Below, one piece after another: positions 21,996-59,646 of a DNA stretch of 64,000 nt. Origin of the DNA: Winogradskyella sp. (GTDB taxonomy: Bacteria; Bacteroidota; Bacteroidia; Flavobacteriales; Flavobacteriaceae); contig PBLD01000001.1 in assembly GCA_002722255.1 (NCBI GenBank), positions 268,012 through 332,011 on the forward strand, written 5' to 3'. The notes under the pieces were generated by a model. That model searched no databases. It was not told where the DNA came from and saw only the letters and a list, made by a program, of their open reading frames with translations. The translations under genes and the position numbers were made by a program. The stretch's first letter is position 1; each line of letters begins with the position of its first letter.

Positions 21996-23321
21996 TTAAA
22001 CCATAATTTCTTCGGTATTGTAAATTTTATCTGCGTTTGTATGTTCATTCAATAATGCTATTTCTTCCCGTTCCATTTTAATAATAAACGCATCTTCCAT
22101 TGCCTTAAATTTAGGCGAAACCAAATCCATATCCTTACTGATTTTTTGGCTGGTAATCTTAGCATAAATCTGTGTAGTGGAAATATTCTTATGACCCATC
22201 ATTTTGCTAAGGCTTTCAAGCGGAACACCCTCGGTCAAAAACATTGTGGCGAATGTATGACGGGCGGTGTGGAATGTAACTTTCTGTTCTGTAACAATAC
22301 CCGCTTCCTCAATAAGTTTACCTATATGCGTGTTGCAAGTCGCATTGGATGGCATTGGGAATACAAAATCATTTCTTGTAGCTCCACGATATTTCTCAAT
22401 GATGCGTTTGGGGATTTCCAAAAGACGGACGTTGGAGGCAACATCTGATTTCTTTCTCCTGCTGATTATCCATTGGTGTCCATCAAAGAAAGACTGGATA
22501 TTGCTCCATTTCAGTTTCTTAATGTCTATGTAAGAAAGCCCTGTGAAGCAACTGAAAATAAAAAGGTCTTTTACAAGTTCATATCGAGGCTTAGATGGTT
22601 TCAGGAGCATTAAGGTTTCTACATCCTCTTTTAAAAGGTAGCTGCGGTCGGTTTCTTCCATACTGATTTCATAATCCTCAAAAGGATTATCCCGTATCAA
22701 GCCTTTTTTAATAGCCAATTCTGCCAAAGCAATAACTGGCATTGTGTAAACCCAAACCGTATTATGGGTACATTCCTTATCAATGCGAAGAAAGAAATCA
22801 AACTCACGAATAAAATCAGAAGTGAGTTCCCGGAAAGCCATATCGTCCCGATGGTAACGCTCCCTTATAAATTCGCTAAGATGGTTGTAAACAGTGTTGT
22901 ATTTGCTATACGTGCTTTGAGAGCGTTTTCCCTTAGCGACCATTTTTTCAAAGTCTTCATTTTGGTCTTTAAAGACTTTTAGTACGGCATCGTCCATTAC
23001 ACCAACACCCAAAAACGAGAGCTTTACTTTCTGTGCGGTCGCAAAACCCTCGTGCTTCAGCATATCTTCGTAAATCTTGTCGATACGACCCCGTACGTTA
23101 TCCAGCTTTTGGTTAATGTTCAAAGCGGTGGCACTCTTGCCCTCAACTCTTCCGTATTTTAAATCCCAATTTTTCGGGTTAATTTCTAACTTTGTTCCCA
23201 AAGTTTTAGCTGTTCCATCAATGGTAATACGTGCCATAATCGGTGCATTACCGTTCTTTTTCAGTTCGTTCTTTTTCAGGTAGAAAAGCAGTTTGAACGT
23301 GGACTTTTTTGTCTGTTCCAT
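21996..23321 (-). CDS. int: IntDOT-type tyrosine recombinase (ICE integrase)
   Basis: The 441-residue protein has an Arm-binding N-terminal domain, a SAM-like core-binding domain and the catalytic domain. Catalytic residues visible are H351 and R354 (HTARH), H377 (MMGHKN) and Tyr386 (TTQIYAKI). The first catalytic Arg is replaced by Ser263 (TGLSYIDI), as is typical of Bacteroidetes IntDOT-like enzymes. It is placed at the edge of the element and catalyses integration and excision. It is not an integron-type IntI: no patch between boxes II and III is evident. Confidence 0.95.
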   Translation of the reverse strand: MEQTKKSTFKLLFYLKKNELKKNGNAPIMARITIDGTAKTLGTKLEINPKNWDLKYGRVEGKSATALNINQKLDNVRGRIDKIYEDMLKHEGFATAQKVKLSFLGVGVMDDAVLKVFKDQNEDFEKMVAKGKRSQSTYSKYNTVYNHLSEFIRERYHRDDMAFRELTSDFIREFDFFLRIDKECTHNTVWVYTMPVIALAELAIKKGLIRDNPFEDYEISMEETDRSYLLKEDVETLMLLKPSKPRYELVKDLFIFSCFTGLSYIDIKKLKWSNIQSFFDGHQWIISRRKKSDVASNVRLLEIPKRIIEKYRGATRNDFVFPMPSNATCNTHIGKLIEEAGIVTEQKVTFHTARHTFATMFLTEGVPLESLSKMMGHKNISTTQIYAKITSQKISKDMDLVSPKFKAMEDAFIIKMEREEIALLNEHTNADKIYNTEEIMV

Positions 23322-31252: not shown

Positions 31253-31325
31253 CGGAACAGACAGGAATTGAACCTGTATCGCCAGATCTTCAATCTGGTG
31301 CATTGACCATCTTTGCTACTGTTCC
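31253..31325 (-). tRNA. tRNA-Phe (GAA)
   Basis: The acceptor GGAACAG/CTGTTCC, anticodon arm CCAGA-TTGAAGA-TCTGG and T arm ACAGG-TTCAATT-CCTGT are intact. The D arm (TAGCAAAGATGGTCAATGC) is weakly paired. No CCA is encoded (discriminator G then CT). It is the last member of the array, next to the YkuK gene. Confidence 0.82.
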
Positions 31326-31331
31326 GGTTTA

Positions 31332-31425
31332 AGCGTCTATCAAGGGTCGAACTCGATCTTAGAGGATATACCTCTTGTGCGATGAACTTGTACTGAGCTC
31401 AGTCTAAGTATTACACTATAGACAC
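31332..31425 (-). tRNA. interrupted tRNA-like gene, identity undetermined
   Basis: The acceptor GTGTCTA/TAGACGC and T arm TCGAG-TTCGACC-CTTGA pair well. The D region is enlarged: GTG ... CAC enclose about 36 bases that include the 12-base palindrome ACTGAGCTCAGT followed by ACAAGTTC. The anticodon stem AGAG-GTATATC-CTCT would place ATA as anticodon, which is not a normal bacterial choice. Either a decayed tRNA with a small insertion or a precursor needing removal of the insert. Confidence 0.55.
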
Positions 31426-31433
31426 TATTTTTG

Positions 31434-31504
31434 ATAACCTGAATGGATTTGAACCATTACCTCAAGAGTCAAAGTCTTGAATGCTGCCATTACACCACAG
31501 GTTA
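31434..31504 (-). tRNA. tRNA-Gln (TTG)
   Basis: Acceptor TAACCTG/CAGGTTA, anticodon arm CAAGA-CTTTGAC-TCTTG and T arm AATGG-TTCAAAT-CCATT are all paired. The D loop reads GTGTAATGGCAGCAT. The discriminator T is followed by CAAA. Confidence 0.85.
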
Positions 31505-31510
31505 ATATTG

Positions 31511-31582
31511 TAAGCTCAATAGGATTCGAACCCATACCTCAAAGTCCGTAGCTTTGAATGCTATCCATTACACCATAAGCTT
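31511..31582 (-). tRNA. tRNA-Arg (ACG)
   Basis: Acceptor AAGCTTA/TGAGCTT, anticodon arm CAAAG-CTACGGA-CTTTG and T arm ATGGG-TTCGAAT-CCTAT. The discriminator A is followed by CAATAT, then the next tRNA. Confidence 0.85.
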
Positions 31583-31586
31583 ATTG

Positions 31587-31660
31587 TACTCCACCCAAGA
31601 CTCGAACTTGGACTTAAAGGTGCTTAAAACCTTTGCCTCTTCCATTTGGGCTAGTGGAGC
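31587..31660 (-). tRNA. tRNA-Leu (TAA) with short variable loop
   Basis: Acceptor GCTCCAC/GTGGAGT, anticodon arm AAGGT-TTTAAGC-ACCTT and T arm CCAAG-TTCGAGT-CTTGG. Bacterial tRNA-Leu normally has a long variable arm; here the variable region is only about four bases. The Leu assignment rests on the anticodon, and charging identity is uncertain. Confidence 0.75.
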
Positions 31661-31665
31661 ATTTG

Positions 31666-31787
31666 TACAGGAAGAGAGATTAGCTCACATCATTTCCATT
31701 GTTTTATGTGTTCGTGAATGCTGTGCATTTCGATCTCCCAATTTCTCGATTCTAAATCGAGTGCGTTTACCATTTCGCCATTCCTGC
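31666..31787 (-). tRNA. tRNA-Leu-like (TAG) with about 47-nt insertion in the T loop
   Basis: Acceptor GCAGGAA/TTCCTGT and anticodon arm CTCGA-TTTAGAA-TCGAG are perfect. The T stem GGGAGA (minus strand of 31734-31739) pairs with TCTCTC (31674-31679), but 54 bases separate the arms instead of 7. The insert contains its own CACAT/ATGTG stem. The variable region is also short for Leu. It could be a decayed tRNA or an intron-like interruption. Confidence 0.6.
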
Positions 31788-31793
31788 AAACTG

Positions 31794-31865
31794 TTGAGGT
31801 AATAGGGATCAAACCTATGACTTTCACGATGTAAGCGTGACGCTCTTCCACTGAGCTATACCTCA
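31794..31865 (-). tRNA. tRNA-Val (TAC)
   Basis: Acceptor TGAGGTA/TACCTCA, a regular D arm (TAGCTCAGTGGAAGAGC), anticodon arm TCACG-CTTACAT-CGTGA and T arm ATAGG-TTTGATC-CCTAT. The discriminator A is followed by CAGTTT. Confidence 0.92.
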
Positions 31866-31870
31866 TTTTG

Positions 31871-31943
31871 TACTCCGTAAGGGAATTGAACCCTTAATTC
31901 CACATAGAAAGTGTGGCGTCTTAAACCATTTGACCAACGGAGC
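31871..31943 (-). tRNA. tRNA-Glu (TTC)
   Basis: Acceptor GCTCCGT/ACGGAGT, anticodon arm CCACA-CTTTCTA-TGTGG and T arm AAGGG-TTCAATT-CCCTT. The discriminator A is followed by CAAAA. Confidence 0.88.
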
Positions 31944-31949
31944 GTTTCG

Positions 31950-31986
31950 CAGTACCGACAAGATTCCCTTCGACTGCGCTCAGGGT
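31950..31986. repeat. partial tRNA-Asp 3' copy joined to a REP-like palindrome
   Basis: Bases 31950-31965 repeat, with one change, the 3' end of the neighbouring tRNA-Asp. They run straight into CCCTTCGACTGCGCTCAGGG (31966-31985), a short palindrome family that also occurs in the attC loops at 53666 and 54356. This indicates a local duplication or strand-slippage event during insertion of the palindrome. Confidence 0.65.
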
Positions 31987-32013
31987 AAACTTCTCATCTC
32001 TTGTTCTGTTTTG

Positions 32014-32085
32014 CAGTACCGACGAGATTCGAACTCGCAACTTCTCGGGAGACAACCGAGTGCTCTACCATTGAACTACGATACT
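32014..32085 (-). tRNA. tRNA-Asp (GTC)
   Basis: Acceptor AGTATCG/CGGTACT, D arm TAGTTCAATGGTAGAGC, anticodon arm CTCGG-TTGTCTC-CCGAG and T arm GCGAG-TTCGAAT-CTCGT. The discriminator G is followed by CAAAA. Confidence 0.92.
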
Positions 32086-32091
32086 ATATTG

Positions 32092-32174
32092 TGGGAATTG
32101 AAAGATTCGAACTTTCTAAGTACAATACAACTGTTTTACAGACAGTCTCAGCTCTCCAACGCTGACGAATTCCC
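32092..32174 (-). tRNA. tRNA-Tyr (GTA)
   Basis: Acceptor GGGAATT/AATTCCC, anticodon arm ACTGT-CTGTAAA-ACAGT, an extended variable arm (TGTATTGTACTTA) as expected for a type II tRNA, and T arm GAAAG-TTCGAAT-CTTTC. The discriminator A is followed by CAATAT. Confidence 0.92.
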
Positions 32175-32181
32175 AAATTTG

Positions 32182-32254
32182 AGACAAGAATGAGATTCGA
32201 ACTCATAAAAAACAGAGTTGCAGTCTGTTGCCTTAACCCTTCAGCCATCTTGTC
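32182..32254 (-). tRNA. tRNA-Cys (GCA)
   Basis: Acceptor GACAAGA/TCTTGTC, anticodon arm ACAGA-CTGCAAC-TCTGT and T arm ATGAG-TTCGAAT-CTCAT. The discriminator reads T, followed by CAAATTT. It is the first member of the minus-strand array. Confidence 0.9.
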
Positions 32255-46720: not shown

Positions 46721-46967
46721 GTGTTCTAAATTTTATATGTTAAACAGTTAATACAATTGAACCTTCAATGATTCAACACTGCAAAGATGAGATGACTAAC
46801 AAATTTTAGTCGGTAGTTACCTATTTAATTTCGTTTGTAAATGTTTGTAGTCGTTTGTAAATGGTTAACACTTTGTTATTATAGGCTTTTATTGTAGATT
46901 TCAGTTTATTTTATAATACTTCCGTTTATTCGGTAGTTGTGCGTCATACCCAAAAAAACCTAGAAAA

Positions 46968-47738
46968 TTGACTGAACAAATAAGAACAGAATTAAAACGA
47001 ATTGAAAAAGAGAATGATATTCAAATTCTCTATGCTGTGGAATCTGGAAGTAGAGCTTGGGGTTTTGCCTCAACTGACAGCGATTGGGATGTAAGATTCT
47101 TGTACATACAAAATCCGAATTGGTATTTGTCTATTGACGACAAAAAAGACAATATGGAAGTTATGTTACCTAATGATTTAGACTTTGCAGGTTGGGAATT
47201 ACGAAAAACACTAAAATTATTTAGGAAATCAAATCCACCTTTGTTAGAATGGTTGAGAAGTCCGTTAATTTATTTAGAACATTATTCGACAGCGGAAAAA
47301 ATGCGTGAACTGACTAAATATTATTTTAACCCAAAATCTTGTACATATCACTATTTGCATATGGCAAAAGGTAATTATCGAGATTATTTACAAACTGATT
47401 TAGTAAGAGTGAAAAAATACTTTTACGTTTTGAGACCGATTTTAGCTTGTAAATGGATTGAATCTATGGGAACAATGGCACCAATGGAATTTGAAAAACT
47501 TGTGAATACTCAAATTGAGAATCCTGAATTGAAAAAAGAAATTGAGAAGTTATTGGAACGGAAAAAATCAGGAGAGGAACTTGATAAAGAAACTCGAATT
47601 GGAATTATCAATGAATTTGTAGAAAAGCAAATTGAATATTTTGAAAAGAAAGTAGAAGATTATAATAAAAATTTTAAACCAGAAACTGAAAAGCTTGACA
47701 AGCTATTTAGGGAAACATTAAATGAGGTTTGGAAATAA
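46968..47738 (+). CDS. cassette 1: RlaP-type nucleotidyltransferase
   Basis: The 256-residue protein starts at a TTG and has the minimal nucleotidyltransferase motif ESGSRAWGFASTDSDWDVRF (GS ... DxD), followed by the YHYLHMAKGNYRDYLQ and KYFYVLRPILACKWIE segments of the PF10127 (RlaP) family. Members were named for association with RNA-repair genes; the actual substrate is unknown. It begins 32 bases after the cassette junction, leaving little room for a promoter, as is usual for integron cassettes. Confidence 0.88.
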   Translation: MTEQIRTELKRIEKENDIQILYAVESGSRAWGFASTDSDWDVRFLYIQNPNWYLSIDDKKDNMEVMLPNDLDFAGWELRKTLKLFRKSNPPLLEWLRSPLIYLEHYSTAEKMRELTKYYFNPKSCTYHYLHMAKGNYRDYLQTDLVRVKKYFYVLRPILACKWIESMGTMAPMEFEKLVNTQIENPELKKEIEKLLERKKSGEELDKETRIGIINEFVEKQIEYFEKKVEDYNKNFKPETEKLDKLFRETLNEVWK

Positions 47739-47747
47739 AAAGTACGA

Positions 47748-47882
47748 ACGCACAACAACGTGTATAATTAATGGCTAGTTCGAGCCTACTTACGAAAATC
47801 CTCGCGGATTTTCTATTCGGTTTTTATTTGCTAAATTAGGTGCTTAAACACGCCACTAATCATACACAAAACCGTTAGCAGC
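47748..47882 (+). repeat. attC-like site 1
   Basis: R'' ACGCACAAC and R' GTTAGCAGC bound arms GTGTATAATTAATGGC and GCCACTAATCATACAC (two mismatches in 16). Inside is a perfect GAAAATCC/GGATTTTC hairpin. The R' half matches the next cassette's own R'', as expected when cleavage occurs at G/TT. Confidence 0.8.
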
Positions 47883-47892
47883 AATTTGAACA

Positions 47893-48495
47893 GTGAATAC
47901 TAAAGAATTACTTGGAGAAAGAATTAAGGACATTCTCGTTTGGTCAAAAATGGAAGTTGGCGGACTTGACCAAGGACAAGTTTTCATTGAATTGAATAAC
48001 GGAAAAACAATTTCGATTCCTTGGGATTTCGAATCTGAAAATATCGAAACCAAACCAATAGCTAAATCTAAAAGTTTGGTGCTGAAATCAAGCGATAAAA
48101 TTAGAATTGAATCAACTGAATTTAATTTTCCAGAAGGTAAAACTTGGAAAGACGTAAGAGAAGATGTTAAAAGGAATCAAAACTCAACTTTATTCGGAAG
48201 ACTCAAAAATAAACTTGGAATTAAAAACGGAATTCCTAAAAAATACACATCGAAATCGACAGAGATTGTGGACAATGAAATGAAAAAATTTCAGAATCTC
48301 AAAATCGTGGATTTTATAATGTTTGAGGACTATGATTCCGTAGGCTTTTTGGAATTAGAAAATGGAAATATAATAACCGAAACACTAACTGCGCCTCACG
48401 GAACTGGAATGGCTGGACTGAATATTTTTGAGAATTTAAAGGACTTTGAGGAAAGTTGCGGAACTGAATATAAACGATTAAAAAACAGCTGCTAA
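47893..48495 (+). CDS. cassette 2: hypothetical protein
   Basis: The 200-residue soluble protein starts with GTG, MNTKELLGERIKDILVWSKM. Both ends have beta-rich segments about binding (QVFIELNNGKTISIPWDFES; SVGFLELENGNIITETLTAP), suggesting two copies of a small domain. I do not recognise a family. Its stop lies in the first bases of attC-like site 2. Confidence 0.82.
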   Translation: MNTKELLGERIKDILVWSKMEVGGLDQGQVFIELNNGKTISIPWDFESENIETKPIAKSKSLVLKSSDKIRIESTEFNFPEGKTWKDVREDVKRNQNSTLFGRLKNKLGIKNGIPKKYTSKSTEIVDNEMKKFQNLKIVDFIMFEDYDSVGFLELENGNIITETLTAPHGTGMAGLNIFENLKDFEESCGTEYKRLKNSC

Positions 48496-48620
48496 CACCG
48501 TGTATAGCTCATTGCGGCTGAATTCCTAATCGGAATTCATTGCAATTTGCTATCTTTCGGCTACGGCGGAAAATCATAGCTGATTTTCCGCAACGATCCA
48601 TACACAAAACCGTTGTACGC
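48488..48620 (+). repeat. attC-like site 2
   Basis: R'' GCTGCTAAC and R' GTTGTACGC bound arms GTGTATAGCTCATTGCGG and CCGCAACGATCCATACAC (four differences in 18). Internal hairpins are ATTCC/GGAAT and GGAAAATCA/TGATTTTCC. Confidence 0.82.
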
Positions 48621-48645
48621 AAGCTGTGAACACCTGTGAAAACCT

Positions 48646-49293
48646 ATGAGAATCATTAAATTCTTCATTCTATTTATAATATTTAGCCAAGTTTCATTTG
48701 GACAAAATAACTGCGGAGATTTTAAAAATTATGAAGAATCTCAAAAGTGGGTTAAGAACATTAAACAATTGAGTCCTGAAGAGCGCAAAAATAAAATTAT
48801 TGATAGAATTGAATGTGAGCAAAAATCAGAACGAAATGAAATTGACTTTTGGCTTACAATAGTAATTGATGGTGGAGCGTTTTCAATTGCTCATGACTTT
48901 TCTGACAAACAAATTGAGAATTTAAAATTAATTCCAGCTGACAGTTTCAACATTGCGCAATCTCTTTGCGAATCAGAAGGAATCTATCCTCAAAGATGTA
49001 ATCTCGGTTTTGTACTAATTAATCGTCCTGATAAACCAGTGCTCAACGAAATAACGGAATTCAAAAATATTCAAATAAAAAGGAGAAAAGGAAAAATCAT
49101 TATCAAATTGGAATCGGAAATTGAAGACGAAATTAAATTTGAATTAAATCACTTACTAAAAGGACATAGTACAAAGCTTTTCGTAAATACCAAACTGAAA
49201 AAAGGCAAAAACAGATTTGTTTTTAAAAGGAGTAATAATTTACAACTTGTAGAAACAGAATTAAATGGAAAAAAATTAATCATAATAATATAA
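48646..49293 (+). CDS. cassette 3: exported hypothetical protein
   Basis: The 215-residue protein has a signal peptide (1-19, VSFGQ) and a mature part with CGDFKNYEESQKWVKNIKQL, a central Cys pair region (CESEGIYPQRCNLGF) and a beta-rich C-terminus. No domain is recognised. It is probably periplasmic or secreted. Confidence 0.82.
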   Translation: MRIIKFFILFIIFSQVSFGQNNCGDFKNYEESQKWVKNIKQLSPEERKNKIIDRIECEQKSERNEIDFWLTIVIDGGAFSIAHDFSDKQIENLKLIPADSFNIAQSLCESEGIYPQRCNLGFVLINRPDKPVLNEITEFKNIQIKRRKGKIIIKLESEIEDEIKFELNHLLKGHSTKLFVNTKLKKGKNRFVFKRSNNLQLVETELNGKKLIIII

Positions 49294-49299
49294 AAGCCA

Positions 49300-49436
49300 G
49301 CGTACAACAATGTATAACCGCAATTACGGCGGATTCGACTACGTCCGAATCCACTCGGAATTGCTAACGTCAGTGCTAAACCGAAAATCATTATCTTTAA
49401 TCCCGTAACTGACGGTTATACGAGACCGTTAGCAAC
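49300..49436 (+). repeat. attC-like site 3
   Basis: R'' GCGTACAAC and R' GTTAGCAAC bound arms TATAACCGCAATTACGG and CCGTAACTGACGGTTATA with one extra base on the right arm. Internal GGATTCG/CGAATCC stem. Its interior is almost identical to sites 4 and 8. Confidence 0.85.
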
Positions 49437-49464
49437 AAGCAAAGACGAACGCCAGGAATTATCT

Positions 49465-49953
49465 ATGAAAATTGAATTTAAAGAAAGACAAAAGTTTACT
49501 CAATGGTGGATTTGGCTGATTTTAATTGGATTGTCAATTATTCCAGTTTACGGAATTTACAAACAACTAATTATGGGAATTCCAGTTGGAACTAAACCTG
49601 TTTCGGATTTGACTATGACAATTTTATCGATTTTTATATTTGGGTTAATTTATTTCAATTGGTATATGACATTAATCACAGAAATCAATAAAGACGGAAT
49701 TAAAATGAGGTTCATTCCTTTCGTAAAAAAAGAAATTCAATGGAGCGAATTGAAATCTATAAAAATAGTGAACTATGGATTTGTTGGTTACGGAATTAGG
49801 CTCGGAAGTAAATACGGAACTGTATACAATATGAAAGGAAATAGAGGGCTTGCGATTGAATTAAATAATGGAAAAAAATTTGTAATCGGAACACAAAAAG
49901 AAATGGAATTGAAAAATGTTGTGGAAAAAATGCCAGTTGCTAACAATGCATAA
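49465..49953 (+). CDS. cassette 4: two-helix membrane protein
   Basis: The 162-residue protein has two membrane helices (about 14-32 and 47-68). A PH-like cytosolic domain follows (FIPFVKKEIQWSELKSIKIV, then YGFVGYGIRLGSKYGTVYNM), as in bacterial membrane PH-domain proteins. The last codons (PVANNA, stop) are formed by the start of attC-like site 4, a common feature of cassette genes. Confidence 0.8.
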   Translation: MKIEFKERQKFTQWWIWLILIGLSIIPVYGIYKQLIMGIPVGTKPVSDLTMTILSIFIFGLIYFNWYMTLITEINKDGIKMRFIPFVKKEIQWSELKSIKIVNYGFVGYGIRLGSKYGTVYNMKGNRGLAIELNNGKKFVIGTQKEMELKNVVEKMPVANNA

Positions 49954-50073
49954 CCGCAATTACGGCGGATTCGACTACGTCCGAATCCACTCGGAATTGC
50001 TAACGCCTGCGCTAAACCGAAAAATTTGCGTACTTTAACCCGTAACTGACGGTTATACTTTACCGTTACCTGC
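49936..50073 (+). repeat. attC-like site 4
   Basis: R'' GTTGCTAAC and R' GTTACCTGC bound arms beginning CATAACCGCAATTACGG and ending CCCGTAACTGACGGTTATAC. Same interior GGATTCG/CGAATCC stem as site 3. It contains the stop codon of the cassette 4 gene. Confidence 0.85.
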
Positions 50074-50096
50074 AAGCTGAAAAAAAGCCACCACAC

Positions 50097-50149
50097 GTTC
50101 AAGCACATTTCATTTTGCTCGTTCCTCACAAAATAAAAAGAGCTTTCAC
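50097..50149 (+). repeat. direct repeat A flanking the restriction-modification genes
   Basis: The sequence starts GTTCAAGCACATT, has CTCGTTCCT in the middle and ends AGAGCTTTCAC. The same three blocks recur at 52977-53025. Each copy can form a stem around CTCGTTCCT (ATTTTG/CAAAAT here). It lies within cassette 5, just after its junction. Confidence 0.75.
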
Positions 50150-50213
50150 TTCCCCACCGCCACCCAAAAAATAAATGACAAATTCGATTGAAATTCAAAA
50201 CTAATTCTTATAT

Positions 50214-50230
50214 TTGACAAATATTGTCAA
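50214..50230 (+). promoter_or_regulatory. putative operator of the restriction-system C protein
   Basis: A perfect 7-3-7 dyad, TTGACAA-ATA-TTGTCAA, ends 15 bases before the ATG at 50246. The geometry matches the dyad upstream of the SIR2-HerA regulator. It is probably bound by the adjacent XRE protein for autoregulation. Confidence 0.6.
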
Positions 50231-50245
50231 GTCAATTATAGGCGA

Positions 50246-50551
50246 ATGAAAAGTATAGGACAGACATTAAGGGAGTTACGTGAATTGAAAGGATTGCTTT
50301 TACGAGAAGTCGGAGCTGCATTATCAATCGACCCAACTCTATTGAGTAAAATTGAGCGTAATGACAGAATGCCCACAAAAGAACAAGTTAGTGCCTTATC
50401 CGAATTCTATCAAGACAAAAAGAATGAAGTCATAATTGCTTGGTTAAGCGACAAACTTGTTTACGAAATCCAAGATGAAGATTTGGCATTAGCAGCAATG
50501 AAAGTTGCAGAACAAAAAATTGAATACTTAAAAACTCATAAAGCTCAATGA
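50246..50551 (+). CDS. cassette 5: XRE-family control protein of a restriction-modification system
   Basis: The 101-residue protein has a Cro/CI helix-turn-helix (GQTLRELRELKGLLLREVGA; DPTLLSKIERNDRMPTKEQV). It is a relative of the regulator at 2497. It overlaps the nuclease gene start by four bases (ATGA). Such C proteins delay nuclease expression when the system enters a new cell, which is useful for a mobile cassette. Confidence 0.9.
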   Translation: MKSIGQTLRELRELKGLLLREVGAALSIDPTLLSKIERNDRMPTKEQVSALSEFYQDKKNEVIIAWLSDKLVYEIQDEDLALAAMKVAEQKIEYLKTHKAQ

Positions 50552-51462
50552 ATATAACTAAGGAAACAGCAAACTATAAAGAAGGTCTCTTGCAATACTT
50601 TCGAGATAGGTCAAGTGAATTTTTGGCAGAAGTAAATGGCGAGTACGGTAATACTGAATACAAAAAGAAAGCAAAGAAATTAAACACACTACTTGTAAAA
50701 GCCAGAACTACTATTATTGAAATAATTGAGCAAAAAGGGAAAAAAGAAAATTGGACAAATAAAGAAATTCTCGAATGCGTGTTGATGGTTACTTACTGCA
50801 ATTATGTTGTAATGCTTGAAGTTCGTCATTCGGTTTGGCCTTATGAATATATGGCTTTCTCACGTAGAATAGGAGAATTATGGGAACCTTTTTGCAAATT
50901 AGCTTTTGAGTATCCTATAAACGATTTAGAGCTTTTTGTTCCACCTTTATTTGCTGATGTAAAAAAGCAATTAGCTGATGAAATTGAAGATTACATTAAC
51001 GGATTGAATCTCACGAATGAAGAAAAGGAGCAACTAATCAAATACTACAACAAAGTTTGGAGTTTGGTAATGTCTGGAGAAATTCAACTTGAACTTGATT
51101 TACATTTCATATTTGAAGGCAAAAAATATGTTGTGGACTTTAAAAGTGGATTTGGCTCAAATGAAAAAGGAAATACGAATAGACTATTATTAGTTGCAAG
51201 TATCTACCACAACCTTGAAGATAATTACGAACCGTTAATCTTCGTGAGAGCGTCAGAAAACAACAATTACTTTAACACATTGAAAAACTCTGGAATTTGG
51301 AGTGCCTTTTCAGGTTCAGAGACCTATGACGAACTTCATAAATATTCAGGATTTGACATTCGCTCTTGGATAAACCAAAATGTGAATTGGGCAGAAGATT
51401 TAGATGATGACTTTGTAGAGCATTTAGAGTCTAACGATTTAACACAATATTTAACTTGGTAA
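50548..51462 (+). CDS. cassette 5: type II restriction endonuclease (PD-(D/E)xK-like)
   Basis: The 304-residue protein lacks methylase motifs and carries a candidate nuclease core: E182/D184 in IQLELDLHFIFEG, then D197-F-K199 in KYVVDFKSG, spaced as in PD-(D/E)xK enzymes. It lies between a control protein and an adenine methyltransferase and ends one base before the latter. Specificity cannot be read from sequence. Confidence 0.82.
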   Translation: MNITKETANYKEGLLQYFRDRSSEFLAEVNGEYGNTEYKKKAKKLNTLLVKARTTIIEIIEQKGKKENWTNKEILECVLMVTYCNYVVMLEVRHSVWPYEYMAFSRRIGELWEPFCKLAFEYPINDLELFVPPLFADVKKQLADEIEDYINGLNLTNEEKEQLIKYYNKVWSLVMSGEIQLELDLHFIFEGKKYVVDFKSGFGSNEKGNTNRLLLVASIYHNLEDNYEPLIFVRASENNNYFNTLKNSGIWSAFSGSETYDELHKYSGFDIRSWINQNVNWAEDLDDDFVEHLESNDLTQYLTW

Positions 51463-51463
51463 T

Positions 51464-52966
51464 ATGATAAGCGAGCAAAGAATATTTCAAGCATACTACA
51501 CAAAGTCAGAACCGATAGTGTCTTATATGGTTGATTTGTTAGGCCTTAATGGTACAGAAACCATTTTTGAGCCATGTGCTGGAGACGGAGTTTTTTTAGA
51601 CCCTATTTTGAGTAAATATGAAACAGTAAAAGTTGATGCTTTTGAACTTAATCTTTCAGCTTATAATAAATTAAAAAGTAAATATTCTGATTTAGAAAAT
51701 GTTTCAATAAAACAAACAGACACATTAACCGATTTGGATTTGGAATTTCTATGTTCAATGGGCGGGAAATATGATGCTGTTATTGCAAATCCACCATACG
51801 GAGCTTGGAGAAACACCGAAGATAGAGCCTCTTTAAAAAGAAGATTTAATGGTTTTTATGCCAAAGAAAGCTACTCACTATTCTTATATAGAAGTATTGA
51901 ATCATTAAATGAAGGTGGTAAGCTTGTTTTCATTATTCCTGATACTTATCTAAACTTAAATATGCACAAGGATATTCGAAAATATATCCTTACAAACACC
52001 AAGATTAAAGAAATCTCATTATTCCCTTCTTCATATTTCCCAGGAGTAAATTTTGGTTATGCTAACTTATCAATTATTGCTTTGGAAAAATGCAGTAATT
52101 ATTCTTCAAACCTGAACAATTCATTCAATATCTACAAGGACTTTAAATCGGTTGAAGAACTTGGAAAAAATGAATTGCAACATTTAACGAAGTTAAAATT
52201 CAAACAAGAAAATGTTTTAAATAATGATGGTCATATTTTTTTAACAAGCAAAAATCAAAATGTTTCTGATACAATTAGAAAAGCTGAATTAACTATCGGA
52301 GATATTTGTGATTGTGCTACAGGATTTTATTCAGGTAATGACAAAGACAGATTAAAAGTTTTAAGCAAGTCAATCAGAAACTCAAAAAGATATGATAAAG
52401 TTGATAAGACCAAAATAACTTATGACTGTAGCTCAAGACCGTTAAATGGGATTGAAACAGAAAAGGTATATGTTCCAATTGTTAAAGGCGGAAATGTAAA
52501 ATATTTCAAAGCAGACAATTGGTTTATGGAATGGTCAAAGGAGATTGTCGACTTCTACAAAAAGGACAAAAAAGCACGTTATCAAAATTCGTCATACTAT
52601 TTCCGAAAAGGAATAGCAGTACCAATGGTTAGTTCAAGTTCAATAACTGGAGCGATAATAGAAAACCGACTTTTTGACCAATCAATTGTTGGAATTTTCC
52701 CTAAAAATGAAGATTTGATTTATTATTTGTTAGCGTTTTTCAATTCACCAACTTGTAATAAACTGATAAGAACAATTAACCCTTCAACAAATAATTCTTC
52801 TAACTACATAAAGAAAATTCCATTCTTTGAACCTATACCAAAGCAAGAGAAAAAAATTACAGAAAATATAAAGCAGATAATTGAACAAGTTAAACTTTCA
52901 GGCGACTATGATTTAGAACTTGAAAACGAAAACAACAAAATAATAAATGAACTGTACGGATTTTAG
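51464..52966 (+). CDS. cassette 5: N6-adenine DNA methyltransferase
   Basis: The 500-residue protein has the AdoMet motif I FEPCAGDGVF (35-44) and the catalytic motif IV NPPY at 109-112. The order motif I-IV and the following large C-terminal target-recognition region (for example DICDCATGFYSGNDKDRLKV) fit gamma-class type II enzymes of the TaqI/Eco57I kind. It protects host DNA from the adjacent nuclease. Confidence 0.93.
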   Translation: MISEQRIFQAYYTKSEPIVSYMVDLLGLNGTETIFEPCAGDGVFLDPILSKYETVKVDAFELNLSAYNKLKSKYSDLENVSIKQTDTLTDLDLEFLCSMGGKYDAVIANPPYGAWRNTEDRASLKRRFNGFYAKESYSLFLYRSIESLNEGGKLVFIIPDTYLNLNMHKDIRKYILTNTKIKEISLFPSSYFPGVNFGYANLSIIALEKCSNYSSNLNNSFNIYKDFKSVEELGKNELQHLTKLKFKQENVLNNDGHIFLTSKNQNVSDTIRKAELTIGDICDCATGFYSGNDKDRLKVLSKSIRNSKRYDKVDKTKITYDCSSRPLNGIETEKVYVPIVKGGNVKYFKADNWFMEWSKEIVDFYKKDKKARYQNSSYYFRKGIAVPMVSSSSITGAIIENRLFDQSIVGIFPKNEDLIYYLLAFFNSPTCNKLIRTINPSTNNSSNYIKKIPFFEPIPKQEKKITENIKQIIEQVKLSGDYDLELENENNKIINELYGF

Positions 52967-52976
52967 CCAACGCAAA

Positions 52977-53025
52977 GTTCAAGCACATTGCAATCCTCGT
53001 TCCTGCGGTTGCAAAGAGCTTTCAC
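52977..53025 (+). repeat. direct repeat B flanking the restriction-modification genes
   Basis: The copy starts GTTCAAGCACATT, has CTCGTTCCT and ends AGAGCTTTCAC, matching repeat A at 50097. Its own stem is TGCAA/TTGCA. Together the two copies bracket the C-R-M genes within cassette 5. Confidence 0.75.
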
Positions 53026-53058
53026 GCCCACGCTCACGGACTGAAAAAAAGAAAGCCA

Positions 53059-53193
53059 GCAGGTAACAATGGCTATACGTAATGCGGGCTAAAGAGCTAA
53101 TATGGAAGTAATTACAATAAATAAACTAACAGCTAAACGGAAAGTGAAGTGCCTTGAAATCCCGCACTACGCATAGCCGAGACCGTTAGCAAC
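53059..53193 (+). repeat. attC-like site 5
   Basis: R'' GCAGGTAAC and R' GTTAGCAAC bound arms GGCTATACGTAATGCGGG and CCCGCACTACGCATAGCC, paired at all but two of 18 positions. The R'' half is the complement of the start of cassette 5 (GTTACCTGC), showing that the entire C-R-M module travels as one cassette. Confidence 0.85.
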
Positions 53194-53220
53194 AAGCTGA
53201 AAACATCCCGTAAAAATAAA

Positions 53221-53616
53221 ATGAATAGAATTCTAATAATATTATTTCTGACTTTTAACTTTTGTGCTTTTGGACAAACTCAGCACGAAATGCACAAGGA
53301 AGCGAGTGAAGAATATAAAAAGTCTGATATTGAATTAAATAATGTTTATCAAAAAATACTGACTGAATATAAATCTGACTCAACTTTTATTGACCGACTA
53401 AAAAAGACACAAAGAATTTGGATTACTTATAGAGACTCTGAATTGGAAATGAAATTCCCAGCTGAAAATAAACAAGCCGAATATGGAAGTGTTTATCCAA
53501 TGTGTGTTTCTTTGTTTTTAAAGGAACTGACTGAAGAGCGAACTGAAAAATTACGGATTTGGTTAAATGGGATTGAAGAAGGCGATATGTGTTCAGGTTC
53601 AGTTAAAACGAATTAA
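53221..53616 (+). CDS. cassette 6: LprI-like (DUF1311) exported protein
   Basis: The 131-residue protein has a signal peptide (1-19, FCAFGQ) and the DUF1311/LprI core: DIELNNVYQKILTEYKSDST, KKTQRIWITYRDSELEMKF, then a late Cys (YPMCVSLFLKELTEERTEKL). LprI-type proteins include lysozyme inhibitors. It is probably periplasmic. Confidence 0.88.
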   Translation: MNRILIILFLTFNFCAFGQTQHEMHKEASEEYKKSDIELNNVYQKILTEYKSDSTFIDRLKKTQRIWITYRDSELEMKFPAENKQAEYGSVYPMCVSLFLKELTEERTEKLRIWLNGIEEGDMCSGSVKTN

Positions 53617-53622
53617 AAGCCA

Positions 53623-53808
53623 GTTGCCAACAATGTATAACCGCAATTACAGCAAATTCGACTATCCTTCGACTATGCTCAAGACAAACTTAAACAAATC
53701 CACTCGGAATTAGCTACACTGAACCCAAAGGTTTGCTAACGTCAGTTCTTAACCGAAAATCATTAGCTTTAAAACCGTAACTAACTTTTATACAATACCT
53801 TTAGCAGT
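53623..53808 (+). repeat. attC-like site 6, with palindromic inserts
   Basis: R'' GTTGCCAAC differs at one base from the complement of its cassette start (GTTAGCAAC). R' reads TTTAGCAGT, having lost the G of GTT. The loop is longer than in sites 3, 4 and 8 because it carries CCTTCGACTATGCTCAAG (53666) and AACCCAAAGGTT (53722). Confidence 0.72.
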
Positions 53809-53815
53809 AATTAGA

Positions 53816-54310
53816 ATGAACAAAACAGATAAATCAAAACATAATATTTCAATTGCTGCGATTAAGCGTTCTACGTTTAAGCCATATGACTATGAATTGA
53901 CAAAATTCTATGAATCAAATTCTGAATTCCCATACCGTGGAATGGAACTTGACTTGACTGAAAATGAACTGATTATTTGCTCAACAGTTGTTGATTCCGA
54001 AAATTATAGTGTTTTGACAACTCAAAAATTAATAACTAAAGAAAACGGAATTAAAAATATTGGGAATTTAATTGGCGCAAAAGACAAACTTTATGGAGAT
54101 TTTAAAGGCTACAAAGACAAGTCATACACATTTGGATTTGTAGAACTGAATAATGGTACGGATTTTAAATATTTTATTGAAACAGGAAAAGCTTCTATGA
54201 TTATGATTTACGGAGTTAGAACTATCATTCGAACAGAAGAAATGACTGAAAAAAATATTCAAAACTCTATAAGAAATTGGAATAGACAAAATGAAAAGAA
54301 TGAAAAATAA
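53816..54310 (+). CDS. cassette 7: hypothetical protein
   Basis: The 164-residue soluble protein starts MNKTDKSKHNISIAAIKRST. It is beta-rich in the middle (GMELDLTENELIICSTVVDS; YTFGFVELNNGTDFKYFIET) with a C-terminal helix. No family is recognised. The ORF fills the cassette and ends just before attC-like site 7. Confidence 0.8.
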   Translation: MNKTDKSKHNISIAAIKRSTFKPYDYELTKFYESNSEFPYRGMELDLTENELIICSTVVDSENYSVLTTQKLITKENGIKNIGNLIGAKDKLYGDFKGYKDKSYTFGFVELNNGTDFKYFIETGKASMIMIYGVRTIIRTEEMTEKNIQNSIRNWNRQNEKNEK

Positions 54311-54312
54311 CT

Positions 54313-54498
54313 ACCGCCAACAATGTATAACCGCAATTACAGCAAATTCGACTACCCTTCGACAAGCTCAGGTCAGGCTCAAGCGAATCCACTCGGAATT
54401 AGCTACGCTGAACCTAAAGGTTTGTTAACGTCAGTTCTTAAACGAAAATCATTAACTTTAATACCGAAATTGACGGTTATACAATACCGTTGTAACGC
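54313..54498 (+). repeat. attC-like site 7, with palindromic inserts
   Basis: R'' ACCGCCAAC and R' GTTGTAACG bound a loop that, like site 6, carries a REP-like CCTTCGACAAGCTCAGG (54356-54372) and the palindrome AACCTAAAGGTT (54411-54422) at the same two points. The bounding arms TATAACCGCAATTA and TTGACGGTTATA are conserved. Confidence 0.75.
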
Positions 54499-54515
54499 AT
54501 TTAAATAAATCACAA

Positions 54516-54980
54516 TTGAACAAAAGTCATAAATTAGAAACTCTGACAACTGAAATAATAAAGCGGGATTTTATGCTGATTAATTCATCATATTTTTCAG
54601 AAATTGTTTATGACGAAAACCGCAGATTTTTTGACTTGTATTTGAATGTAGGTACTAATGGAATTCTAGAAAATCATGTAAAAAAATTTAATGAACTAAT
54701 TGAAAATCTGAACGAATATCTGATTAAAATTAGTATGTATTTAAAATCGACTTACTCAAACTCTGAAAAAAAGAAAGCGGCTGAACTGAATGAAAAAAAG
54801 CTGAATATTAGTGTTGTTCAGATTTTAGACGACAACAAAGACTTCGATACGGTTATAGTTTGCGAAAAAGAATACAAATATTTTGGAATTTTCAAAAGAA
54901 ACATTTCTGTAAGAACCGAAATTAAAAATAGTCGAATTATAACCATGGAAAGAAAAAAAGATACTTTAAAGGAAAATTAG
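54516..54980 (+). CDS. cassette 8, gene 1: hypothetical protein
   Basis: The 154-residue soluble protein starts at TTG, MNKSHKLETLTTEIIKRDFM. It has a helical first half and a beta-containing second half (FDTVIVCEKEYKYFGIFKRN). No family is recognised. The second gene of the cassette begins two bases after its stop. Confidence 0.75.
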   Translation: MNKSHKLETLTTEIIKRDFMLINSSYFSEIVYDENRRFFDLYLNVGTNGILENHVKKFNELIENLNEYLIKISMYLKSTYSNSEKKKAAELNEKKLNISVVQILDDNKDFDTVIVCEKEYKYFGIFKRNISVRTEIKNSRIITMERKKDTLKEN

Positions 54981-54982
54981 AG

Positions 54983-55225
54983 ATGACTGAATTTATAATC
55001 ATACTAATTTTAATCATCGTTTTTGGAGCTTTTTTATATTGGGCTTATTTGCCAGATTATAGGAGAAATCCAAAAGAGTTTTGGCGAACTTTAATCGGAA
55101 TGCCAATTGGAATGTTATTTGGTGGAATTGGATTTAATGATTTAAACGAACGAATCAAAAAATGGGCAGTTGGAGATAAAAATGAAAAAAAAAGAAAAAT
55201 AAAAACGTGTTACAACAATGTATAA
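54983..55225 (+). CDS. cassette 8, gene 2: small membrane protein
   Basis: The 80-residue protein has one strong membrane helix (residues 4-25) followed by a second hydrophobic patch (IGMPIGMLFGGIGFNDL) and a Lys-rich tail. Its stop lies inside attC-like site 8. Function unknown; two genes per cassette is uncommon. Confidence 0.72.
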   Translation: MTEFIIILILIIVFGAFLYWAYLPDYRRNPKEFWRTLIGMPIGMLFGGIGFNDLNERIKKWAVGDKNEKKRKIKTCYNNV

Positions 55226-55344
55226 CCGCAATTACGGCGGATTCGACTACGTCCGAATCCACTCGGAATTGCTAACGTCTGTGCTTAACCGAAAATCATT
55301 AACTTTAATCCCGTAACTGACGGTTATACGAGACCGTTGTAGAC
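55207..55344 (+). repeat. attC-like site 8
   Basis: R'' GTGTTACAAC differs at one base from the complement of its cassette start (GTTGTAACGC). R' is GTTGTAGAC. Arms TATAACCGCAATTACGG and CCGTAACTGACGGTTATA and the GGATTCG/CGAATCC stem equal those of site 3. Confidence 0.85.
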
Positions 55345-55355
55345 AATTATCCCAT

Positions 55356-55808
55356 ATGAGAATATTACTAATTATCCTATTAGCTGTTCTTTCCCTTAAT
55401 TCGTGTATGAATGAACAAAGCAAAGAATTGGAATTAAATGACCGAATAGCTGAACTCGAAAAAATGAATAAAAAGTTGTCTGATTCGTTGAACAAAATGA
55501 TGGAAAACAGAATTTACAATACACAACTTATTGCAATACCTGAAAAAACAGAGGTAACTATGGGTGTGCCCAACAAGTTAAATATAGTAATGCATACTTT
55601 TCTTCCTTATCCTAATTATAAGGTTTACCGTATGAAGGGCAATAATGAAAAAGAAATTCTAAAAGAAAATCTAACTAAACCAAGTTTTGACTTAGAGTTT
55701 ATTCCAAGAGCAAATGAAAAAACTATTGTGAATTATTCGGTAGTAATTGACTTTAATGGCAAGAAAATTGAAATCCCAAGTCAAGTTTCTTATGAGCCAG
55801 AAAAATAA
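55356..55808 (+). CDS. cassette 9: lipoprotein with coiled coil
   Basis: The 150-residue protein has a lipobox leader (LLAVLSLNSC, Cys17) and a coiled coil (ELNDRIAELEKMNKKLSDSL). An Ig-like C-terminal beta domain follows (VTMGVPNKLNIVMHTFLPYP; VNYSVVIDFNGKKIEIPSQV), resembling the end domains of GldM-type proteins. It is probably anchored in the outer membrane. No function is assigned. Confidence 0.8.
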   Translation: MRILLIILLAVLSLNSCMNEQSKELELNDRIAELEKMNKKLSDSLNKMMENRIYNTQLIAIPEKTEVTMGVPNKLNIVMHTFLPYPNYKVYRMKGNNEKEILKENLTKPSFDLEFIPRANEKTIVNYSVVIDFNGKKIEIPSQVSYEPEK

Positions 55809-55814
55809 AAAACT

Positions 55815-55952
55815 GGTTACAACAAAGCCTATAATTAATTGCAGCTTAATTTACTCACGGGAGTTTCAATCTTATTCATTATCTTTCGATTACGGCAAAA
55901 AAATCACAACTACTTTTCCGTTAGCGTTACACACTAACACATTGTAAGCAGT
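55815..55952 (+). repeat. attC-like site 9, degenerate
   Basis: The left half GGTTACAACAAAG, then TATAATTAATTGC, follows site 1 closely. The right half (CACACTAACACATTGTAAGC) has lost bases and the GTT reads GTA. It marks the right limit of the recognisable array; recombination activity is doubtful. Confidence 0.5.
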
Positions 55953-57015: not shown

Positions 57016-57660
57016 ATGAAACGTTTGCTCAGCTACATCTATCCCGTGACCAAAACCATCGAATCCAAATACAGCGGAAAGCTAGAAATTACATGGTATA
57101 ACGGAAAAAAACATCTTAACTCAGCGAACGCTAATTATAGTTATGGTTCGCTACAACGCATTTTAAAGTTTGGGTTAAAAAAGATAGATCTTTCCAAAGT
57201 AAATTCAGTTTTAATTTTAGGATTAGGAGGCGGAAGTGTCATTGAAACTTTACGACAAGACTTTAACTATTCTGAACTAATTGAAGCTGTAGAACTTGAT
57301 CCGGTAATAATAGATATCGCCAAAACAGAATTTGGTATAGAACAGAACGAAACATTAAAAATTCATTGTGCAGATGCCTATGAATTTGTTAAAGACCACT
57401 CAAAAACATTCGACCTCATTATTGTTGATCTTTATATAGATTTAGATGTTCCAAATAAATTTCTGGATTTTGAATTTTGGGATCATATTTTGGCACTAAA
57501 AAATTCATCTGGCTCCATAATTTTCAATGCTGCAGTTAAGATTTCAAAAGCTGATAAAATCATTTCGATTTCAAATTACCTGAAAACAAAAGTATTCAAG
57601 GTTGAGCTTTACGACAATGTTAACAAGACTAATACCCTCATTATTGCAAAAGGCTTGTAA
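57016..57660 (+). CDS. spermidine-synthase-like methyltransferase fold protein
   Basis: The 214-residue protein has the AdoMet-type motif VLILGLGGGSVIETL, the acidic EAVELDPVIIDIAKTEFG and LIIVDLYID, as in spermidine synthase-related proteins. The polyamine-specific gatekeeper region is not evident. It may be a methyltransferase or a stand-alone aminopropyltransferase relative. Confidence 0.85.
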   Translation: MKRLLSYIYPVTKTIESKYSGKLEITWYNGKKHLNSANANYSYGSLQRILKFGLKKIDLSKVNSVLILGLGGGSVIETLRQDFNYSELIEAVELDPVIIDIAKTEFGIEQNETLKIHCADAYEFVKDHSKTFDLIIVDLYIDLDVPNKFLDFEFWDHILALKNSSGSIIFNAAVKISKADKIISISNYLKTKVFKVELYDNVNKTNTLIIAKGL

Positions 57661-59295: not shown

Positions 59296-59646
59296 ATGCA
59301 AAGAAAATGTCCTGAGTGTGGAGATAGAATAATTGGTAGAGTAGACAAAAAGTTTTGTAGTGACAGTTGCAGAAATGCACATAATAATCGCATTAACAAA
59401 GACTCTAAAAACCTAATTAGAAACACTAATAACAGACTCAGAAAAAACTATAGAATCTTAGAAGCACTCAACCCAAATAAAAAGACCAAATGCTCTAGAG
59501 CCAAACTTATAGAAAAAGGGTTTGATTTTAACTATTTTACAAGCATATACACCACAAAAGCAGGAGCTATATATTACTTTGTGTACGACCAAGGATATTT
59601 ACCTTTAGAAGGAGATTATTATGCTTTGGTAAAACGAGATGATTAG
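59296..59646 (+). CDS. zinc-ribbon protein
   Basis: The 116-residue protein begins with a four-Cys zinc ribbon, CPECGDRIIGRVDKKFCSDS followed by CRNAHNN, a DUF2116-like knuckle. A helical middle and a short beta tail follow (YYFVYDQGYLPLEGDYYALV). It is common in Flavobacteria; nucleic-acid or protein binding is inferred. It overlaps the end of the CBS gene on the other strand by four bases. Confidence 0.82.
   Translation: MQRKCPECGDRIIGRVDKKFCSDSCRNAHNNRINKDSKNLIRNTNNRLRKNYRILEALNPNKKTKCSRAKLIEKGFDFNYFTSIYTTKAGAIYYFVYDQGYLPLEGDYYALVKRDD

Follow-up and report, generated by a model that had tools for sequence, protein, structure and literature searches.

An integron-type array of nine gene cassettes in Winogradskyella, probably recombined by a tyrosine recombinase without the IntI additional domain

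The analysis of a 64,000-nucleotide stretch of a Winogradskyella sp. draft genome (NCBI GenBank assembly GCA_002722255.1, contig PBLD01000001.1, positions 268,012 to 332,011; this whole stretch is called the window, and its own coordinates are used throughout) reveals an array of nine gene cassettes at 46937-55945. We consider it very likely that this is an integron-type array whose sites, probably folded from the bottom strand, are recombined at G/TT (the slash marks the crossover point) by a tyrosine recombinase that lacks the additional domain, or patch, of the integron integrase IntI. The array is built of nine tandem units, each with one or more plus-strand genes followed by a palindrome with boxes of the AAC...GTT type, and the 3' box is degenerate in two of the nine sites (TTT in site 6, ATTG in site 9). 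All nine palindromes claimed in a preliminary description of this DNA were recovered, with cores of 121-174 bp where it had given 133-186 bp, a length that takes in some flank. The cassette genes do all lie on the plus strand, as that description had it, and the two genes it had seen ending inside their own palindromes (49465-49953 and 54983-55225) indeed have their stops there, at 49953 and 55225; the stop of a third gene (48495) falls in an AAC box. With an AAC/GTT palindrome, a G/TT crossover (read from the boundaries) and complementary cassette ends, the window sites have the properties of attC sites, and with nine of them and no adjoining integrase the array resembles a cluster of attC sites lacking an integrase (CALIN), as first proposed, with gene content unlike that of sister species. 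The sole recombinase on the same contig among the matches listed measures 442 amino acids (aa) and lies about 24 kb off; it is a tyrosine recombinase of another type, part of which is at 22143-22343, and its match is confined to the C-terminal part.

The distribution of the sites was followed with two covariance models, R1, built from the nine window sites only, and R2, a broader model. In the same Winogradskyella genome R1 gave at least 74 matches at E ≤ 1, 65 of them beyond the window and most at E < 1e-5 (150 of 1491 candidates were scored), where a few of the 74 are the same cassettes at the overlapping ends of contigs C2, C10 and C12 and many stand at contig ends. Contigs C2, C10, C12, C14, C15, C16 and C17 end within cassette arrays or close to them, and the first cassettes of C10 are also those of C12; the assembly therefore probably breaks at these repeats, hiding part of the integron. 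In a set of 60 genomes, sites were found in all 37 members of the genus, 3 to at least 56 in each (with at most 56 candidates scored per genome), and in 6 of the 23 genomes from outside it. Across the phylum, R2 matched at E ≤ 1e-4 in at least 104 of 296 genomes (11 candidates scored per genome), which by rank comprise 2/2 of the genus, 18/28 of other genera in the same family, 1/6 of the order, 14/37 of the class and 69/223 others.

Tyrosine recombinases of one kind accompany these sites. Two of them, of 395 aa (contig C10) and 375 aa (C2), occur in the same genome with cassettes of the same site class downstream and co-directional, and the statement in the preliminary description that no integrase is visible thus holds for the array region and not for the genome. 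Of 30 recombinase loci in relatives, 17 have sites no more than 1.5 kb away; in 13 of these the sites are downstream and point the same way as the recombinase, and in the other four they are divergent. In five genomes of one or two contigs a non-IntI recombinase stands beside the array; the search for IntI among these five covered G010, where none exceeded the cut-off. The recombinase alignment also served to retrieve 80 loci from named genomes. R1 matched 13 of these at E ≤ 0.001, all of Bacteroidota type and none among the 11 named IntI loci; the positives include Zunongwangia, Algibacter, Winogradskyella, Seonamhaeicola, Flavobacterium aciduliphilum, Aquiflexum and Pontibacter along with uncultured Bacteroidales and Sphingobacteriales, and weak matches fell to L137 (E 0.012), L121 (E 0.051) and the unrelated L190 (E 0.076). 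R2, which covered 46 of the 80 named loci plus eight IntI loci with short flanks, matched 16 of 29 Bacteroidota-type loci, co-directional in all but L148, and none of six archaeal, Spirochaetota or candidate-phylum loci; it also matched none of 19 IntI loci, a control that is weakened because 8 of the 19 have only about 1.5 kb of flank.

The recombinases themselves retain R, K, H, R, H and Y without exception (27 of 27). Their spacing from K to HxLRH is mostly 64-65 residues (63 to 69), as against 106-107 for nine of the canonical IntI rows and 87 for a further row, and a stretch of 66 residues between aligned blocks in IntI4 (2A3V) corresponds to 23 in the 395-aa recombinase. The additional domain was not found in them, and six of six recombinases scanned fell below the cut-off of the integron-integrase model TIGR02249. 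In a tree of 108 rows, ten IntI rows group with L167 in a single clade (SH-aLRT 100, quick method) that includes none of the site-adjacent rows, and the 375-aa recombinase is placed with the Winogradskyella ursingii enzyme in a clade of seven rows, which makes a flavobacterium the likely host. L143 and L174, which are too short, stand outside this tree, and L164 gave no usable reading frame for the spacing comparison. A clade of IntI with the site-adjacent rows alone, their close kin left out, was rejected (p 1.4e-5), in topology tests that dropped 12 long, short or near-identical rows. Recombinases listed with stops were considered as broken copies and this was rejected, as the stop on C2 ends an intact frame of 375 aa and others keep full frames, although short ones do occur, L098 (192 aa) and a few besides.

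These observations bear on a first alternative, namely that the array is the remnant of a canonical integron whose cassettes were moved by an ordinary IntI, since lost or unassembled. Such a remnant would be compatible with a draft that is 83.9% complete and with the presence of IntI over the cut-off in 84 of 296 genomes of the wider phylum. It is opposed by the genome itself, in which no recombinase passes the cut-off (TIGR02249, 265 bits), by the finding of IntI over the cut-off in 1 of the 73 genomes of the phylum sample that belong to the same class or closer (G118), though sites occur in 18 of 28 of the same family, and by the 11 named IntI loci, which carry neither an R1 nor an R2 site (nor is there an R2 site in eight more with short flanks), and we regard it as very unlikely. 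The expectation of an IntI-type recombinase elsewhere in the genome was not borne out: none exceeds the cut-off, and the site-adjacent recombinases neither have the additional domain nor fall within the IntI clade.

The cassette boundaries provide a further line of evidence. Among 89 cassettes (the window plus ten further loci, with a few near-copies because contigs C2 and C12 of the genome overlap in content), the two ends of a cassette match at five or more of six variable positions in 85, the same test across the linear site is passed by 8 of the 89, and none of 20,000 permutations reached the observed sum. This test excluded sites without AAC/GTT (6 in the position profile, 10 in named genomes) and gaps of less than 150 or more than 6000 bases. 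For the nine cassettes of the window, 45 of 63 end positions are complementary (neighbours, 17/56), a value as high in 1 of 100,000 permutations and counted with the start of cassette 1 placed five bases off; read from 46937, the ends of cassette 1 match at 8/8. In 14 loci of named genomes, drawn from another collection, the ends match in 25 of 33 cassettes, compared with 3 of 33 across the linear site. A position-by-position profile (n = 87 rather than 89, full 16-base ends being required) shows pairing over positions 1 to 8 or 9 and again over 11-13, interrupted at position 10 by a fixed mismatch; the mismatch has A at the cassette start in 86/87 and G in the reversed end in 75/87, which makes a T.G wobble on the bottom strand. 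Since complementary ends mark both a G/TT crossover and a circular form, the cassettes likely cross over at G/TT and pass through a circle.

This reading is further strengthened by comparison of the window locus with its relatives. The array adjoins ssb (PF00436), without the attI of the recombinase loci, and its left junction is at 46936..46937 on the plus strand (G/TT), where TTTATnCGGTAG/TT is common to two relatives with other cassettes. In the sister genome G064 (locus L225) the flanks are the same (87.6% on the left, 95.9% on the right) but enclose other cassettes, in an array of about 3.5 kb with five sites, the last of which is the shared site 9, as compared with 8.9 kb and nine sites in the window; G027 (L231) has the same left junction, yet other cassettes, and homology diverges after G/TT. 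In G031 the first gene of cassette 8 (54490-54977, 86.7%) lies directly beside ssb, with no R1 site there. Cassettes also recur away from this locus: the unit of cassette 1 (46936-47891) is present whole in another array on contig 3 of G030 (89.9% identity), cassette 3 recurs in G015 and G011 (82-84%), and the gene part of cassette 9 stands on another contig of G064 (83%) with a different site after it. The right flank is comparable in the closest sister only, because the 321-aa gene to the right of the array, which has no Pfam match, occurs in 2 of 60 genomes including its own; the next gene (57016-57660, Spermine_synth) is also near the locus in G031. Two loci, L230 and L232, were considered as empty sites and rejected as such: no site was found in them, but the flank is too diverged to call them empty.

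Gene content at the locus thus varies among sisters, which counts against the ordinary interspersed repeats that the preliminary description had set as its own alternative, and its suggestion of an active or recent array appears to be borne out by this comparison among relatives and by that only. A related account would have interspersed palindromic repeats whose genes were shuffled by homologous recombination and nothing else; sites 3 and 8 of the window are 88% alike over 161 bases, so that exchange between sites is possible, but both the complementarity of the ends (85/89) and the stop of homology between diverse sites at G/TT are left without a reason, and we find this account very unlikely.

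The fold of the sites and the sequence behind the recombinase genes were considered together with a third account, in which the host recombinases XerC and XerD act on double-stranded sites, as with dif-like mobile modules, and the palindromes only mimic attC. Across 97 distinct sites the stem is paired in 92.7% of cells, and 253 cells changed on both sides, compared with 78.9 after shuffling and at most 83 with slid partners, a count tilted towards structure because the alignment was fitted to the model. The bottom strand has G.T at one stem pair in 96/96 rows and at another in 84/96, where the top strand has C.A mismatches, and it folds more stably than the top strand for nine of nine window sites, with RNA and DNA parameters alike; RNAalifold on a MAFFT alignment of these nine recovered the stem only in part. 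From this we take the bottom strand to be the strand that is recognised.

Right behind the recombinase stop there is a conserved sequence, a candidate attI, which reads TATATCCAATTG/TT in four loci and ATATAACnAG/TT in three and is followed immediately by the cassette start; its conservation up to G/TT in these seven loci suggests an attI beside the recombinase. Both recombinases of the Winogradskyella genome, on C10 and C2, have such a candidate and then cassettes behind them, as do those of many relatives. In five of six loci the first cassette has ends that match at 5-6 of 6 positions, and at L010 (contig C2 of the same genome) a multi-gene cassette of 8,668 bp, which includes an Hsp70-family gene (PF00012), stands behind the 375-aa recombinase with ends matching at 8/8. 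The array recombinases do resemble Xer enzymes in fold and score (most closely XerA, 5hxy; also NF040815), but arms that covary as a single folded strand, G.T wobbles kept on a fixed strand, and arrays that begin at a sequence right behind a dedicated recombinase make the XerC/XerD account highly improbable. That the palindromes are transcription terminators or small-RNA-type repeats without mobility is scarcely credible: they do stand after genes, but no Rfam family reached its gathering score in the array (nor did Rfam give anything relevant as an attC-like family), gene content at the locus varies among sister species, and cassettes that differ between sisters recur elsewhere with homology ending at the site boundary.

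On the proposed integron-type mechanism, the recombinase adjoining the arrays would catalyse both excision, between two attC sites, and the insertion of cassettes at attI, and the conserved G.T wobbles (C.A on the other strand) would select the bottom strand. The hairpin may be recognised by the N-terminal domain, or by another part, as it is by the IntI additional domain in canonical integrons, and the window array itself would go back to an insertion next to ssb, at a secondary site rather than at attI. The array would then work like an integron, standing by its recombinase criteria outside the IntI integron family as defined; the catalysis we infer from sequence. The N-terminal domain measures about 100 residues in most site-adjacent recombinases, and its predicted model weakly resembles the XPB/HARP fold; a PDB fold search with this domain gave nothing at E ≤ 0.001, and Pfam on the domain alone listed DUF5710 and Pox_A22, both below threshold, and never HARP. 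The recombinases at L161 and L158 are about 680 aa long and far more extended at the N terminus, and sites follow the former; recombinases with a similar-looking N-terminal extension occur in an Undinarchaeales bin (L141) and a Spirochaetota bin (L131), with no R1 or R2 site at either.

A broader reading, on which we are evenly divided, is that of a second integron lineage, widespread in Bacteroidota, whose recombinases do without the IntI additional domain and read wobble-marked hairpins through an XPB/HARP-like N-terminal domain. The additional domain would on this reading be dispensable for cassette recombination, and the lineage, which might descend from the patchless stock that gave IntI, would have been missed by surveys that pick integrases by that domain.

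Several observations weigh against these interpretations. Recombination is deduced from boundaries and comparison, none having been observed, and since the draft is incomplete an IntI could, by this genome alone, lie in the missing part. R2 also matches genomes outside the class, some of them with canonical IntI, and G118, of the same class, holds one R2 match together with an IntI over the cut-off. No site was found within 1.5 kb of 13 of the 30 recombinase loci in relatives (several of which are cut by contig ends), nor an R2 site in 13 of the 29 Bacteroidota-type named loci, and 14 of the 16 loci matched by R2 had themselves supplied sites to that model. The end test is failed by the first cassette of L108 (4/6) and by 8 of the 33 cassettes of named genomes, possibly through intervening sites that were missed. 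The N-terminal domain is not universal, as the recombinases of L095 and L102 (277 aa) stand beside sites without it. A clade that joins IntI with all 64 Bacteroidota-type rows was not rejected (p 0.53), which makes a common patchless ancestor of IntI and the site-adjacent recombinases possible on the sequences compared. Moreover, the part consulted of one published account describes an integron-like subgroup of tyrosine recombinases in which the insertion is not fully conserved, yet is termed essential for integron function (PMC8138268), and kin of the present recombinases may therefore already be filed there.

The array shares much with sedentary chromosomal integrons and CALINs: tandem cassettes, a palindrome after each gene, AAC...GTT boxes, a G/TT crossover, an attI-like site beside a tyrosine recombinase gene, and variable cargo that is mostly of unknown function or related to defence. 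It differs from canonical integrons in a recombinase that has no additional domain and does not fall within the IntI clade, in conserved G.T wobbles, in a recombinase usually co-directional with the cassettes (13/17) and in a multi-gene cassette of 8.7 kb. The end arms differ as well, since they pair across some 13 positions (8-9 bp, then a fixed T.G bottom-strand mismatch and 3 bp) and not over a 7-bp core; in canonical integrons, according to the portion of the source consulted, attI and attC share the 7-bp core GTTRRRY, with the crossover between its first two bases (PMC8876359). The XerA or archaeal-type model NF040815, labelled "site-specific tyrosine recombinase/integron integrase", gave the highest NCBIfam score for five of the six recombinases scanned, with 226, 245.5 and 242.2 bits above its cut-off of 220 bits and 219.1, 198.4 and 190.7 bits below it among the six; unlike the XerA type, most recombinases here have the N-terminal domain and are tied to cassette arrays.

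In the excerpts of the literature that were consulted, integrons are on record for Bacteroidota (PMC8618304), the IntegronFinder 2.0 paper notes that its earlier survey listed nothing but In0 elements for Bacteroidetes and mentions a single complete integron, from Salinibacter (PMC9024848), and an integrase survey retained only genes with the IntI additional domain (PMC2426708). No description of such a system was found in the titles and abstract starts of the open-licence PMC literature, preprints excluded, which is weak evidence of absence. Large gene-capture systems may thus have been overlooked across Bacteroidota, and if the reading is true cassette genes become accessible in large numbers, including restriction systems. 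If the recombinase works as proposed, it becomes possible to test directly how integrons arose, whether the additional domain is needed and how the attC strand is chosen.

The nine cassettes lie on the plus strand, and their attC-like sites were scored by R1 on the minus strand. Cassette 1 (46937..47874) has an RlaP-family nucleotidyltransferase gene at 46968-47738 (Pfam PF10127, 318 bits) and site 1 at 47754..47876 (80.3 bits). Cassette 2 (47875..48612), with the complementary ends TTAGCAGC and GCTGCTAA, encodes a 200-aa protein without a Pfam match and has its site at 48494..48614 (106.9 bits), and cassette 3 (48613..49428), with the ends TTGTACGC and GCGTACAA, encodes a 215-aa protein and has site 3 at 49306..49430 (139.2 bits). 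The gene of cassette 4 (49429..50065), for a DUF6141-like protein (PF19638, 28.4 bits, cut-off 27), ends in its own site at 49942..50067 (118.4 bits). Cassette 5 (50066..53185), bounded by TTACCTGC and GCAGGTAA, is a three-gene type II restriction-modification unit with a helix-turn-helix gene (50246-50551), a restriction endonuclease gene (50548-51462; PADLOC PDLC03405 REase_II, 338 bits) and an Eco57I-type methyltransferase gene (51464-52966; Pfam Eco57I), all on the plus strand, followed by site 5 at 53065..53187 (96.8 bits).

Cassette 6 (53186..53800) encodes an LprI-like protein (PF07007, 71 bits) and has site 6, with the degenerate 3' box, at 53629..53802 (111.1 bits), and cassette 7 (53801..54489) encodes a 164-aa protein without a Pfam match, with site 7 at 54319..54491 (113.8 bits). 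Cassette 8 (54490..55336) encodes proteins of 154 and 80 aa and has its site at 55214..55338 (137.8 bits), and cassette 9 (55337..55943), for a 150-aa protein, ends in the degenerate site 9 at 55821..55945 (74.7 bits), which is common to the G064 locus (95.9% from 55831). Restriction genes of types II and III, together with a gene for an Hhe/PDC-S37-like protein, are found in other arrays of the genome.

Three copies of an IS110-family insertion sequence (PF01548 and PF02371; one copy tested) were found in L103 (7672-8664, 9536-10528 and 17633-18625), in three different sites and at the same spot in each, between the inner arm and GTT, just before ACCGTT. Known IS1111 members likewise target attC sites, as stated in the part of the source consulted (PMC11187229); unlike with these IS1111-attC elements, the target here is a new site class in Bacteroidota. 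A gene for a cysteine-motif protein of about 125 aa stands divergent and upstream of the recombinase in five loci (L103 2671-3054, L106 7602-7985, L107 6690-7073, L104 2768-3139 and L010 10441-10824; the L103 copy has no Pfam match), and a gene that resembles it by eye, also with no Pfam match, lies to the right of the array at 59296-59646. Elsewhere in the window, a cluster of eight tRNA genes occupies 31253-32254 on the minus strand.

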